A stretch of DNA of 64,000 nucleotides from assembly GCA_944324915.1 (NCBI GenBank), contig CALUYD010000001.1, forward strand, positions 124,001 to 188,000, written 5' to 3'. This stretch comes from Candidatus Gastranaerophilales bacterium. Its GTDB lineage: Bacteria > Cyanobacteriota > Vampirovibrionia > Gastranaerophilales > Gastranaerophilaceae. A model generated the notes under the pieces. That model worked only from the letters and a program-made list of their open reading frames with translations. It made no database searches and had not been told where the DNA came from. Below are positions 23,980-55,123 of the stretch, piece by piece. Made by a program: the position numbers and the translations under genes. Numbering within the stretch: position 1 is the stretch's first letter; the number at the start of each line of letters is the position of its first letter.

Positions 23980-25092
23980 TTAATCTAAATCCTTAACTTT
24001 CAATTCGCAACACATCTGGCAAGACGAAAAAACTTTAGAATACTTTAAATTTTTCCTAAAACAACAATATTTTGGAGAATTTATAATTTCTTTTAGCGTC
24101 TTTTCTTTTAAATTGCCCATTTTATATGATAAACAAGGATAAACATCTCCTGATGGGTTAATTATTGCGTTAGAATAAGGATATAAACAAGGTTTATAAA
24201 TATCAGCTACATTTTTATCATTGTATTTAGTAAAAAATTTTTTAATTAAATCAAGCTCTTTTTTGCTATCAGAATTATCAAACTTAGGCGCAAAGCGGAT
24301 TTTTGTTTTAGAATATTTTTTCATTTTTTGAATTTCAAGATAAATTTCTTCAAATTTATCTAAATCAAAATAAAGTTCAATAGGGTAATTTTTATTATAA
24401 AAAACCTCATCAAAACTATCATATAAATTTGAATTTTGCTTTAAATTGTTATTTCTTAAAAATGAAATTGAAAGATAATCAAAACCTTTATTTGTGCAAT
24501 ATTGATAAAGTTTTAAGATGTCTTCTAAATTATCTTTTAGAACAATTGTTTTAATATCAATCGCTAAATTACTATGAGAATTTTTGCATTGGTCTGCTAA
24601 ATTTTCCAAATTATCGGTAATTTTATCAAAAATTCCTTCTTTTTGTCTGTTTTTATCGTGATTTTTTCCCAAACCATCCAATGATACACTCAACAAAAGC
24701 ATTTTTGATTTTATAAAAGCATTAATTATCTTATCATCAATCAAAACCCCATTTGTAACAACATTCACTTTACCTAAAGTCTTTTTTGAAACTTCAAATA
24801 AAATATCGCAAAAATCAGGTCTAATTAAAGGTTCACCCCCAACCAACGTTACAAAAGAATAAAAAGGAATTTGCTTTATAATATCAAACCATTGAGATGT
24901 ATTCAATTCATTTTTTACCCTATTTGTACCAACGTAACAATAAGGACAGTTTAGGTTGCAAAGATAAGTAAGCTCAAAAAAATACCTTAAAGGTAAAATT
25001 GCCTTGTTTCTTTTTTCCATAAAGCGAGAATAATTAATCGCCCCATAAGCGTCACGAATAAAATCAAAAATTTTAGACGAGCTTAAATCCAT
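23980..25092 (-). CDS. Radical SAM protein with SPASM-type C-terminus
   Basis: 370 aa. The radical-SAM cluster motif is C45xxxC49xxC52 (CNLNCPYCYV). GGEPLIRPDF and VVTNGVLID follow as in SAM-binding barrels. The C-terminus has clustered cysteines (CLYPYSNAIINPSGDVYPCL; SSCQMCCELK) consistent with an auxiliary Fe-S cluster of the SPASM/twitch type. Such enzymes modify peptides or small metabolites; no peptide substrate gene is visible nearby. A TATAAT ends 6 nt before the ATG and there is no Shine-Dalgarno, so the mRNA is probably leaderless. It is divergent from the ferredoxin-nitroreductase gene. Confidence 0.85.
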   Translation of the reverse strand: MDLSSSKIFDFIRDAYGAINYSRFMEKRNKAILPLRYFFELTYLCNLNCPYCYVGTNRVKNELNTSQWFDIIKQIPFYSFVTLVGGEPLIRPDFCDILFEVSKKTLGKVNVVTNGVLIDDKIINAFIKSKMLLLSVSLDGLGKNHDKNRQKEGIFDKITDNLENLADQCKNSHSNLAIDIKTIVLKDNLEDILKLYQYCTNKGFDYLSISFLRNNNLKQNSNLYDSFDEVFYNKNYPIELYFDLDKFEEIYLEIQKMKKYSKTKIRFAPKFDNSDSKKELDLIKKFFTKYNDKNVADIYKPCLYPYSNAIINPSGDVYPCLSYKMGNLKEKTLKEIINSPKYCCFRKNLKYSKVFSSCQMCCELKVKDLD

Positions 25093-25098
25093 AGCTTG

Positions 25099-25128
25099 AT
25101 TATATACTATTTTATATTTTTAAGTAAG
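25099..25128 (-). promoter_or_regulatory. Probable leaderless promoter of the radical SAM gene
   Basis: TATAAT at 25104-25099 is followed by exactly six bases and then the ATG, placing the transcription start on the A of the start codon. A weak -35 (CTTACT, 18-bp spacing) is upstream. Confidence 0.6.
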
Positions 25129-25137
25129 CAAATTATA

Positions 25138-25146
25138 TGATATTAT
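25138..25146 (+). promoter_or_regulatory. Extended -10 element before the ferredoxin-nitroreductase gene
   Basis: TGaTATTAT. The predicted start is near 25153, about 22 nt before the ATG at 25175. No good -35 is visible. Confidence 0.4.
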
Positions 25147-25174
25147 TAATTTATTGAAATATTTGGAGGGTTTT

Positions 25175-26059
25175 ATGAATCATAAATTTAAAGTTGACTA
25201 TGAAAAATGTATAAAATGCGGATTATGTATTGAAAATTGTTCTACTCGTGCGCTAGCTTATGATGATTATAACTCTCCAAAAATGGATAAACCAAAAAAC
25301 TGTATGGAATGTCAGCATTGTTTTGCAATTTGTCCCGTTGGCGCCATTTCCATTATGGGAAAAGAAGCTCAAAATTCTAGTGAAATAAGACAAATTAACC
25401 CTGATGATATTTTAAATTTAATTCAATCAAGAAGAAGTATCAGAAAATATAAACAAGAAAATGTATCAAAAGAAACAATACAAAAATTAAAAGATATGTT
25501 GAACTATGTCCCCACAGGCAAAAACAATCACAGACTTCATTTTTCTTTTATTGAAGATATTGATGTTATGAACGATTTTAGAGGAAAAGTTAACACAACT
25601 ATCGTTAATTTTTTCAACAAAAAACCTGTCAAATTCTTATCTGAAAAATTTAAAAAACTTGAAAAAATGAGAAATGCAATTCTAAAAGGAAATGATGTAA
25701 TTTTTAGAGGCGCACCTCATCTTGTGGTTGCATGTGCTCCTGTTAATTCTTCTTGTCCTAATCAAGATGGCATAATTGCGCTATCATACTTTGAATTATA
25801 TGCAAATTCTCTTAATTTAGGCACTTGCTGGTGCGGATATGCTTATGCGGTTTTAAAATTATTCCCCGAATTTTGCGAGTATCTGCAAATTCCTGACGGA
25901 TACCAACCAATTTATGTAATGCTTTTTGGAAATAAAGATATTGAATACAAAAGAACAACACAACCAAATCCTTATTCATTTTTAACCATTGAAAAGCAGG
26001 ATTTAAATGTTGATATTTTTACAAAAATCAAAAGATTTTTCTTAAACATTGCTCGATAA
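25175..26059 (+). CDS. Ferredoxin-fused nitroreductase family oxidoreductase
   Basis: 294 aa from the ATG at 25175, chosen because TTGGAGGG lies 5-6 nt upstream; an in-frame ATG at 25154 precedes that site. Two 4Fe-4S motifs are in the first 60 residues: CIKCGLCIENC and CMECQHCFAICPVGAI. A nitroreductase fold follows with the FMN-binding start SRRSIRKYKQENVS and GTCWCGYAY later. Such fusions use ferredoxin-type electrons to reduce nitro or quinone-like substrates under anaerobic conditions. The substrate is unknown. It is divergent from the radical SAM gene. Confidence 0.88.
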   Translation: MNHKFKVDYEKCIKCGLCIENCSTRALAYDDYNSPKMDKPKNCMECQHCFAICPVGAISIMGKEAQNSSEIRQINPDDILNLIQSRRSIRKYKQENVSKETIQKLKDMLNYVPTGKNNHRLHFSFIEDIDVMNDFRGKVNTTIVNFFNKKPVKFLSEKFKKLEKMRNAILKGNDVIFRGAPHLVVACAPVNSSCPNQDGIIALSYFELYANSLNLGTCWCGYAYAVLKLFPEFCEYLQIPDGYQPIYVMLFGNKDIEYKRTTQPNPYSFLTIEKQDLNVDIFTKIKRFFLNIAR

Positions 26060-52262: not shown

Positions 52263-52730
52263 TTGAAACAAACTTTATCAGTTTTAATACCTTTAATGTT
52301 ACTTGTGGCGCTTATTTTAAATCAAGCACTGCCTGCTGATGCAGCAAAGAAAAGTGCGAAGAAAAAAGGCGTTAGCCAAGAAGTTATTGATAATTTATCA
52401 ACCCAAATTAACACCCTGACTCAAAAAATATACGAAAGAGAATTATATACACCGGAAGATTCTAAAACGCTTATCACTCTTAAATTAGAGCTTGATGCTC
52501 ACATGGATACATTACCTGAAGCGTCTTTTGCGCCTTTATATTATAAAATAGGCAACATTTACAGATTAAGAGGAGAAGAAAAAGACGCAATCGTATGCTA
52601 TCAAACAATTTTAGAAAATTTTTCAGATACAGCATACGGACCTAAAGCAAGAGATGTCTTAACTCAAATGGGCGTAGAAATAAGAGTTCCGATTGAAGAA
52701 GACGAAGAAGAATTTGAAGATGAAATTTAA
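52263..52730 (+). CDS. Secreted small TPR-like protein
   Basis: 155 aa, starting with TTG at 52263 after a strong GGGGAG site. It has a signal peptide (LSVLIPLMLLVALILNQALPADA), then a helical part with one TPR-like pair (YYKIGNIYRLRGEEKDAIVC) and an acidic tail (EEDEEEFEDEI). It is likely periplasmic. The promoter of the next transcription unit overlaps its stop codon. Confidence 0.7.
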   Translation: MKQTLSVLIPLMLLVALILNQALPADAAKKSAKKKGVSQEVIDNLSTQINTLTQKIYERELYTPEDSKTLITLKLELDAHMDTLPEASFAPLYYKIGNIYRLRGEEKDAIVCYQTILENFSDTAYGPKARDVLTQMGVEIRVPIEEDEEEFEDEI

Positions 52731-52755
52731 CATTAAAACGATTTTGTGTTAAAAT
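52727..52755 (+). promoter_or_regulatory. Promoter of the riboswitch-like leader
   Basis: TTAACA, 17-bp spacer, TAAAAT with extended TG (TGtTAAAAT). The -35 overlaps the stop codon of the preceding gene. The predicted start is near 52762. Confidence 0.7.
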
Positions 52756-52761
52756 AATTTT

Positions 52762-52922
52762 CAAAAGAGAGTTACAAATAGGAAATAGAGGTGAAATTCC
52801 TCAGCTGGGCCGCAGCCGTTATAGCCGGAACACTAAATTTTAAAGCATTGTGCGGAAAACCAAGTGCTTTATAGGATTTAAAATCTGACTTATAATTTTG
52901 CGGCCCAAGAAAGGGTCGAATT
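52762..52922 (+). promoter_or_regulatory. Structured leader RNA, cobalamin-riboswitch-like
   Basis: About 160 nt between a strong promoter and a TTG start. GGAAATA and a hairpin GAGG-TGAAATT-CCTC (52788-52802) are followed by GCTGGGCCGCAGCCGTTATA and GCCGGAACAC. This order resembles the conserved core of cobalamin riboswitches, including the short class-II type. GGGCCGC (52807-52813) is perfectly complementary to GCGGCCC (52900-52906). The latter's GGCCC can instead pair with GGGTC (52913-52917), which covers the Shine-Dalgarno AAAGGG (52910-52915). The two pairings exclude each other. A classical 3' B12 box is not obvious, so the ligand is uncertain. Confidence 0.65.
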
Positions 52923-53630
52923 TTGGTAGCACCGGCAGGAGCAGCAACCGTACAAAACACAGGAAAATGTCCGCATGGATTGCCTATTGGCACATGCCCT
53001 ATCTGCAACGGCATGAGTGGCGGTGGCGGTGTTAGAAAAGATAAAGATAAACCCCGTGTAGCAGGCGAGATGAGCTATAATGAATGTATGGCAGCATGGA
53101 TTAAAATTCAAGCGGCCAAAGAAGCTAAAATTCAAGCTCAAATCGAAAGAATGGAAAATCTGCAAGCAAGATATGCGGAAAATAGATTAATCCATGGGCT
53201 TGATAAAATAAATAAAACTTTAGATAAAATAACTCAAAATTTAGAGCAAATGCCTAAAATTATTGCAATTCCTGCTAAAGTTTTTATAAATGTGATAGTT
53301 AAACCGATTTTAAATCTTATAGCTAAAATACCTCAAATTATCAATAATATTCAAACTTTAATTACAAATATCAAAAATTTCATATCATCAGTTAGCGAAA
53401 AATTAGCCTCAGTTTTTGGCGAAGTAAAGAATTTTATTGATGCAAAAATAACTCAACCTCTTAAAAAAGCAATTAAAACAGTTCTTTCATTCTTTAGCCA
53501 AGGCGAAGAAGAAGAAAATGAAGAAGTAGAAAAATTAAAATCAAGAGAAATTAAAAAAGTTCTAAAAGGATTATTCAGAATTAAAAATAAAAACGAAAAA
53601 GATTTAGAAGAAAATGAAGAAGAACAATGA
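52923..53630 (+). CDS. CPHGxPxGxCPxC-motif protein under riboswitch-like leader
   Basis: 235 aa, starting with TTG at 52923 seven bases after AAAGGG. The N-terminus carries C16-P-H18-G...C25-P-x-C28, a likely metal-binding knuckle, then a Gly-rich turn. The centre has amphipathic helices (about 100-190; LNLIAKIPQIINNIQTLITN) that may lie on a membrane. The C-terminus is charged (EEEENEEVEKLKSREIKK). No known family. Its stop overlaps the next ATG (ATGA), so the two proteins are probably partners. Confidence 0.65.
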   Translation: MVAPAGAATVQNTGKCPHGLPIGTCPICNGMSGGGGVRKDKDKPRVAGEMSYNECMAAWIKIQAAKEAKIQAQIERMENLQARYAENRLIHGLDKINKTLDKITQNLEQMPKIIAIPAKVFINVIVKPILNLIAKIPQIINNIQTLITNIKNFISSVSEKLASVFGEVKNFIDAKITQPLKKAIKTVLSFFSQGEEEENEEVEKLKSREIKKVLKGLFRIKNKNEKDLEENEEEQ

Positions 53631-55123
53631 AAATAAGTAATTTTGAAACATTTAAAAATAGAGTATTGCCAACAAATCAATCAAATCATCCTAATAACGA
53701 CACTATTAAGGGTTTGCTTTTAAATACTTATATCAAAAAAGATACAACTGAAAAAATCGAAGATTTCAATAGAATATCTAACGAGCTTTTAATTCCAAGC
53801 AAAATAGAATTGCCAAAAGAAGACAAAAAAGAAGAAAAAAAAGAAAACTTTGACTATAAAAAAGCGCTAAAACCTGTTTTAATAACTACTCTAGCAACTA
53901 TTGCGACACTTGGAGCAGTTAGTTTTGCAACAAAAAGATATTCAAGCGTGCTTGCAAACAAAGAAGATTTTATACGCCCGGGAGATTTAGCAAGAAACGT
54001 AAATATCCTTGAAGAACCACATTTTGCAGCATATAGAATGCTACGAGATCCCAACGCTAAAAATGTTGCAGGCTTTATCGGCGTTGGCTTAATGAGCGCT
54101 ATTACGTTAATTTGCAAAAATTTCTTTAGCGCAGTTAAAGAAATTTGGATTAAAAAACAAAATTGCGATATAGAACATGACCTGCAAGAAAATCTAATTC
54201 AAGTTGAAACAGACGCATTTAGCGGAAAATTAAATGTTGTTAATACTCTTTTGAGTGATACAACAAAATATTTTAAAGAAGTTTTATCAAACAATAATAA
54301 AACCAATGTAAATTTTAAGAATTACATTAATTTTAAAGGTGCAAATAAAGATAAAAATAATGAAAATGATGAAAAAAAGAAAAATCTAAAAACCTTTTTA
54401 GCCCTTTCTGCTGGCGTTATAGGCTTTGTTGGAATATCATTTATCCTATTTAAAAATTATCAAAAAACATTGAAAAATCTTGATACATTTACTCAAAAAT
54501 ATGAACATGAAAAAATTAAAGCGCAAATTGCCGATGCAATTAATAATAGCGATAAATCAAGCGCTATTAAAAAACTAACTGATTTATTTAAAGTAATTAA
54601 TGCTAAAGATGAAACAATGAAGGAAAATTTCTCTAAAATCAGAGGAATTACGCCTGATGAAATAAAAAGTGCAATTCAAGAAGTTCAAAACGCACAAATA
54701 TATGCGCAAGCCCCTGAAGCCCTAGGCGGTATAAGCGAAAAAATCCAATATTATTGCTATATCAATGAAGATAGAGGACATTTATACAATTGGATTTTAA
54801 ATCCTGAAAACAAATTCAATAAATATTTATTTATCTGCTTTAGCGCTATAAGCGCAATAGGATATATTGCAAAAGAAACAGCAGACGCCGTTAGAGAAGT
54901 CATTGTAAATCGTGAAAACTCTAAAAGCGAATTATCGCTAAAGAAAAAACTTGTTGATACTGAAATTAGAAACTTTAAAGCTAAAAAAATGAGCGCAATT
55001 AACCCTATGATAGATAATTTTATTTGTAAATTAGAGCAAAATCGCCCTAAAGAAGAATTAAAACACATAGCTGAAAATATCTTAATTGAAATTAAAAACG
55101 GTCCGCCTTATGTTTATTCATAA
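53627..55123 (+). CDS. Polytopic membrane protein of unknown function
   Basis: 498 aa. It starts MKISNFETFK, like two other proteins here. Four hydrophobic segments lie at about 82-101, 147-164, 257-280 and 400-420. They are separated by large helical cytoplasmic or periplasmic regions; two pairs each show a TM, a charged helix and a second TM, suggesting an internal duplication (compare CKNFFSAVKEIW with AKETADAVREVI). A segment NYINFKGANK lies between the halves. It is translated with the CPHG protein and ends in a strong terminator. Confidence 0.65.
   Translation: MKISNFETFKNRVLPTNQSNHPNNDTIKGLLLNTYIKKDTTEKIEDFNRISNELLIPSKIELPKEDKKEEKKENFDYKKALKPVLITTLATIATLGAVSFATKRYSSVLANKEDFIRPGDLARNVNILEEPHFAAYRMLRDPNAKNVAGFIGVGLMSAITLICKNFFSAVKEIWIKKQNCDIEHDLQENLIQVETDAFSGKLNVVNTLLSDTTKYFKEVLSNNNKTNVNFKNYINFKGANKDKNNENDEKKKNLKTFLALSAGVIGFVGISFILFKNYQKTLKNLDTFTQKYEHEKIKAQIADAINNSDKSSAIKKLTDLFKVINAKDETMKENFSKIRGITPDEIKSAIQEVQNAQIYAQAPEALGGISEKIQYYCYINEDRGHLYNWILNPENKFNKYLFICFSAISAIGYIAKETADAVREVIVNRENSKSELSLKKKLVDTEIRNFKAKKMSAINPMIDNFICKLEQNRPKEELKHIAENILIEIKNGPPYVYS

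Follow-up and report, generated by a model that had tools for sequence, protein, structure and literature searches.

Genomes of the genus studied here lack most known B12 enzymes and, for the most part, BtuC, yet they keep a B12 switch on an operon that begins with a gene for a CPHG-motif protein, and this puzzle frames the locus described below. We asked which class of riboswitch the leader of this operon belongs to, how such a leader might control its genes, and what those genes might do. We addressed these points within a window of 64 kb (the whole stretch of DNA analysed) and in related genomes of the family and order.

The leader and its aptamer

The leader lies between an ORF for a TPR-like protein, which ends at 52730, and a 235-aa ORF that starts with TTG at 52923. 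A first-pass annotation had proposed a strong extended -10 promoter giving rise to a leader of about 160 nt, and both proposals held: the predicted promoter places the start of transcription near 52762 and hence predicts a leader of ~160 nt, and most relatives in the genus have similar TG-containing -10 elements at the equivalent place. The features of the locus are as follows.

52727-52755, + strand: predicted sigma-70-type promoter with an extended -10 (TG), TTAACA, 17 nt, TAAAAT
52768-52841, + strand: cobalamin riboswitch aptamer, AdoCbl-II (RF01689), 41.5 bits
52779-52835, + strand: inner pairs of P3, TAG (52779-52781) with CTA (52833-52835), read from the sequences
52788-52802, + strand: P4 hairpin GAGG-TGAAATT-CCTC, arms 52788-52791 and 52799-52802
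52804-52816, + strand: P5/L5 hairpin GCTG-GGCCG-CAGC; candidate partners of L5 are L13 and an RBS-proximal element
52842-52870, + strand: P13/L13 hairpin, 8 bp, stem AAAGCAUU/AGUGCUUU with covariation, loop GUGCGGAAAACCA
52899-52906, + strand: TGCGGCCC, 8-nt complement of L5 (52807-52814), also 5' arm of the RBS hairpin
52901-52918, + strand: predicted RBS-sequestering hairpin CGGCCC-AAGAAA-GGGUCG, covering the Shine-Dalgarno (SD) sequence AAAGGG (52910-52915)
52923-53630, + strand: operon gene 1, 235-aa CPHGxPxGxCPxC protein with a TTG start, order-specific
53627-55123, + strand: operon gene 2, protein of 498 aa with some four hydrophobic segments; 4-nt overlap with gene 1

The resemblance to a cobalamin riboswitch core, for which the annotation had proposed covariance-model searches, was borne out by Rfam. 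The only RNA detected in the whole 64-kb window was AdoCbl-II, whose match on the forward strand exceeds the gathering score of 36.5 bits (E=1.6e-6 for the window) and spans the full length of the model (1-81); this is also the one RF01689 match in the whole genome, and the only cobalamin riboswitch detected there. The related class-I family with the same ligand, RF00174, reached 29.5 bits at the same site, below its gathering score of 31.5, matched no other position in the genome and was dismissed. The annotation had also suggested a variant class since a classical B12 box is missing. This was not supported: the AdoCbl-II consensus is here also without the classical box, and we dismissed a new class because RF01689 scores above threshold. 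By its score, its conserved core and its P4 and P5 hairpins, with covariation in homologues, the leader is assigned to a known class of cobalamin riboswitch, AdoCbl-II (Cbl-II), which is carried by 51 of 58 relatives.

With regard to individual helices, 98.7% of P4 cells are paired, with double changes at two of the four pairs. The inner pairs of P3 read CAG/CTG, GAG/CTC or AAG/CTT in relatives. The closing helix P1/P2 contains several non-standard pairs in the window, and visible covariation among relatives is limited to these inner P3 pairs. Like other members of the RF01689 class, the window leader combines the aptamer core with an L5 loop and a short P6 that has no large peripheral domain, followed directly by a P13/L13 hairpin and predicted RBS control. 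It differs from the class in its targets, an uncharacterised operon, and in that the RBS hairpin holds a second, longer complement of L5 in its 5' arm. One leader of the set (L011, genome G004) carries an insertion of ~170 nt, with repeated ACCCGAATGAAGCGAA...GAGCAAAATGAGGGCACAAGGTGT units, between the aptamer and the RBS region. Our search of the open-access literature found no paper linking Melainabacteria or Gastranaerophilales to cobalamin riboswitches.

Candidate partners of the L5 loop

The 8-bp hairpin directly 3' of the aptamer, which the first-pass annotation had overlooked, lies where known cobalamin riboswitches have P13/L13, and GCGG in its loop matches CCGC of L5 (CGG with CCG). 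Across 19 leaders of the genus, five of the eight P13 pairs show double changes, and for P4, P5 and P13 together 81.7% of cells are paired, compared to 35-58% when the strands are slid, with 50 double-change cells compared to 19.5 in shuffles. The arrangement matches that of the Priestia megaterium metE riboswitch, in which mutations define a kissing loop between C70-C71-G72 and C185-G186-G187, that is, CCG with CGG: there too the L13 hairpin lies just 3' of the aptamer and a separate regulatory hairpin follows P13 (PMC10653944). In other genera, L5 and the post-aptamer hairpin gave p=0.0026 in a swap test. Within the genus the L5/L13 swap test gave no covariation signal, as there is scarcely any variation in the GCG/CGC part.

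L5 has a second potential partner. The long-range pairing noted from the single sequence exists as a perfect complement, and its length is 8 nt and not 7: L5 GGGCCGCA (52807-52814) can pair with all of TGCGGCCC. This exact 8-mer appeared in 37 of 20,000 dinucleotide shuffles of 52842-52922, and ~11% of shuffles contained some 8-nt match between one half of the leader and the other. Because chance matches are this frequent, the complement in a single sequence is only suggestive, and comparative evidence has to carry the claim. We counted the pairing on a sequence-only MAFFT alignment of 26 leaders, which placed the downstream element in register without using the pairing (another alignment put the RBS-proximal element in the wrong place). 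In register, 65% of cells pair, compared to 21-49% when slid by 1-4; the row of the window defined the pairing tested, which favours register 0. Nine well-aligned rows, chosen by eye, gave 83% in register and at most 47% slid.

The covariation proposed as a check by the annotation is seen in three relatives, in which the L5 complement is compensated: over 8 of 8 nt in G010 (GGGTCGCA/TGCGACCC) and over 7 nt in both G006 (TACCGTA/TACGGTA) and G085 (GACCGCA/TGCGGTC). A swap test by L5 type gave p=0.032 for L5 against the RBS-proximal element, and a cruder, sliding version was weak (359 of 5,000 permutations). Most other members of the genus retain only GGGC/GCCC (4 bp), and pairing over all 8 nt would require the top of P5 to open. 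We conclude, with moderate support from these alignments, that the complement between L5 and the RBS-proximal element is conserved, several relatives maintaining it through compensatory changes.

The hairpin said to hide the RBS is also present and slightly larger than described, with 6 bp (52901-52906 with 52913-52918). The proposal of mutually exclusive pairings around the SD is thus supported as a matter of sequence features, with the complement conserved through compensatory changes. Immediately 5' of the start codon many relatives have equivalent SD-covering or terminator hairpins, and many other genera of the family have at this place a hairpin, GTCCTCT...AGAGGATTTTTTAATG, that is SD-covering and terminator-like at once. 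These hairpins point to an OFF output, which would act through translation or termination depending on the lineage. At the family level, leaders of CPHG genes (for example L013, L119 and L129) join the SD-covering arm of this GTCCTCT...AGAGGATTTTTTAATG hairpin to a terminator-like U run, whereas RBS hairpins are shorter in the window's genus. This suggests that control has shifted between termination and translation at one orthologous gene.

The location of the L5 complement bears on which loop L5 would meet when ligand is bound. The complement of G085 is confined to the loop of a hairpin resembling a terminator (CCTTGTG-TTGCGGTCAATAG-CACAAGG-TTTTTT), such that kissing and hairpin are compatible and pairing with L5 could stabilise the hairpin; several genus members likewise hold it in a hairpin loop. 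This raises the alternative that the bound-state kissing is between L5 and TGCGGCCC, with the RBS hairpin acting as P13, cobalamin directly stabilising sequestration and the post-aptamer hairpin being structural only, an alternative also favoured by the fact that this complement covaries with L5 and the post-aptamer loop of the genus does not. In the window and several relatives, however, the complement is in the stem, so that pairing with L5 would open the RBS hairpin, and the post-aptamer hairpin sits where P13 normally lies and, in other genera, covaries with L5. Weighing these points, we regard this alternative as somewhat unlikely, and prefer docking of L5 with L13 in the bound state.

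Ligand, direction of control and proposed mechanism

Within the order, sister copies of the aptamer stand ahead of nrdD, metE, cobT and a TonB receptor gene with a FecCD permease gene behind it, as read from the sequences (FecCD and NrdD were confirmed separately). As these are ordinary B12 genes, the ligand of the window's aptamer is very probably cobalamin. Genes of the nrdD, metE, transport and cobT types are usually repressed by B12 in cobalamin regulons, and from this we take it as most likely that cobalamin turns translation off at the window's operon as well.

The opposite sign has a precedent. The cobT riboswitch of A. halodurans is a known activating corrinoid riboswitch and illustrates how mutual exclusion between P13 and the output hairpin can reverse the sign of control (PMC10653944). 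Since TGCGGCCC in the window cannot form both of its pairings at once, a cobalamin-stabilised L5/TGCGGCCC pairing could in principle remove the 5' arm from the SD and switch the operon on. We consider activation distinctly improbable: unlike the A. halodurans case, nothing in the window is evidence of activation, the sister copies stand on normally B12-repressed genes (nrdD, metE, transport), and in G085 the pairing is compatible with an OFF hairpin.

Repression thus remains our preferred reading. Established parts of it are the aptamer match, the hairpins with their covariation, the conservation of the L5 complement and the conserved association of riboswitch and operon. Building on these, we consider it likely that a class-II cobalamin riboswitch represses a B12-linked two-gene operon, mainly at translation initiation. 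We infer that cobalamin would bind the aptamer, after which L5 would dock with L13 of the directly following hairpin. The RBS hairpin would then have its 5' arm available for the SD, and translation would be off. Without cobalamin, L5 could instead pair with TGCGGCCC, by which the ribosome-binding site would be freed. In a variant of this scheme, L5 would pair with the loop of the RBS hairpin in the bound state and stabilise it, leaving the OFF direction unchanged. P. megaterium metE controls termination through an antiterminator derived from P13 (PMC10653944), whereas the window has L5 itself as candidate competitor strand and the SD hairpin as output. We found no description of L5 serving as both kissing loop and anti-sequestor strand in cobalamin riboswitches.

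The operon and the B12 metabolism of the genus

The first gene of the operon was correctly annotated as a 235-aa ORF with the motif CPHGLPIGTCPIC that is no known B12 gene; to this we add that its association with the riboswitch is conserved across the order. The closest relatives of the CPHG protein are encoded on Candidatus Gastranaerophilales bacterium contigs (up to 95% identical). Among 60 sampled family genomes we detected it in 55, and each of the 55 genes is preceded on its own strand, at a distance of 72-232 nt, by a riboswitch match. It also stands behind a riboswitch in other families of the order, and a sample of genomes from further families, drawn broadly across the class and not the order, yielded none. 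Where downstream DNA was read, the next gene usually encodes a protein of ~500 aa. Outside the window's genus (for example L089, L084 and L059) a conserved 150-210-aa protein with an N-Y-x-[IV]-F ... ALP motif is often encoded 3' of the 500-aa gene.

In the CPHG protein, Cys16, His18, Cys25 and Cys28 do not vary among 15 relatives, as expected of a zinc-knuckle-like site, and are followed by long amphipathic helices. Neither this protein nor its ~500-aa partner has a Pfam or NCBIfam match above cut-off or a convincing relative of solved structure. Matches to the Pfam families Baculo_PEP_C and AI-2E were set aside as below cut-off and on the helical part, as were weak PHROGs hits, in which the helical part aligned with tape-measure proteins among others; a phage origin of the CPHG protein was dismissed, no relative being found among viral contigs. 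Because the AlphaFold models are poor (pLDDT 62 and 58) and a Foldseek search returned nothing at E<=0.001, we draw no function from structure. No curated family match identifies the operon as known cobalamin transport, synthesis or isozyme genes. From its regulation and the membrane-like partner we tentatively suggest, with somewhat less than even confidence, that the operon serves in the acquisition or handling of cobalamin or other corrinoids.

The riboswitch is matched in 25 of the 28 genomes of the genus (all but G012, G014 and G022), in each case before the CPHG gene. In the genus we found neither a full NrdJ nor a QueG over cut-off; it relies on NrdD. FecCD permeases are absent except in two genomes, with no BtuC-type permease in most. 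MetH over cut-off occurs in a single one of the 39 genomes searched, which belongs to the genus (G006:C3:24470-27992, in adjacent ORFs). Of radical SAM proteins with a B12-binding domain, the window's own genome has one clear case, of 469 aa, and one marginal match. A further locus (L174:2745-4040; G000:C9, ~24744-26039) encodes an intact 431-aa relative of NrdJ that is missing N- and C-terminal parts and in which the catalytic NPCGE motif reads DSCAA. Similar ORFs, ~380-455 aa long, are present in almost every genome of the genus that was searched, and the 431-aa protein looks like a retained pseudoenzyme.

The near absence of recognisable B12 enzymes and, in most genomes, of a BtuC-type permease, together with the poor P1/P2 pairing in the window, would fit a cobalamin riboswitch by descent that is now unresponsive or senses something else and is kept for its overlapping RBS structure. 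We think this very unlikely, given that compensatory changes preserve the core, L5 and P13, that most genus genomes keep a significant match and that a B12-binding-domain radical SAM protein remains in most of them. A bolder extension of the repression model, which we put forward as speculation and believe to be improbable, is that a lineage-specific CPHG/500-aa system for acquiring or handling cobalamin (corrinoids) replaces BtuB/BtuFCD in much of Gastranaerophilales and that L5 doubles as kissing loop and anti-sequestor of the RBS hairpin.

Since the riboswitch almost everywhere in Gastranaerophilales precedes the same two-gene operon, the genes for the CPHG and 500-aa proteins are strong candidates for a new vitamin-B12-linked function. 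Orphan genes under riboswitch control have already led to new transporters and enzymes. Here the same two genes are tied to a B12 riboswitch across an order of gut bacteria, even in lineages that have lost most of the known B12 machinery, and this tie makes a B12-linked role directly testable.
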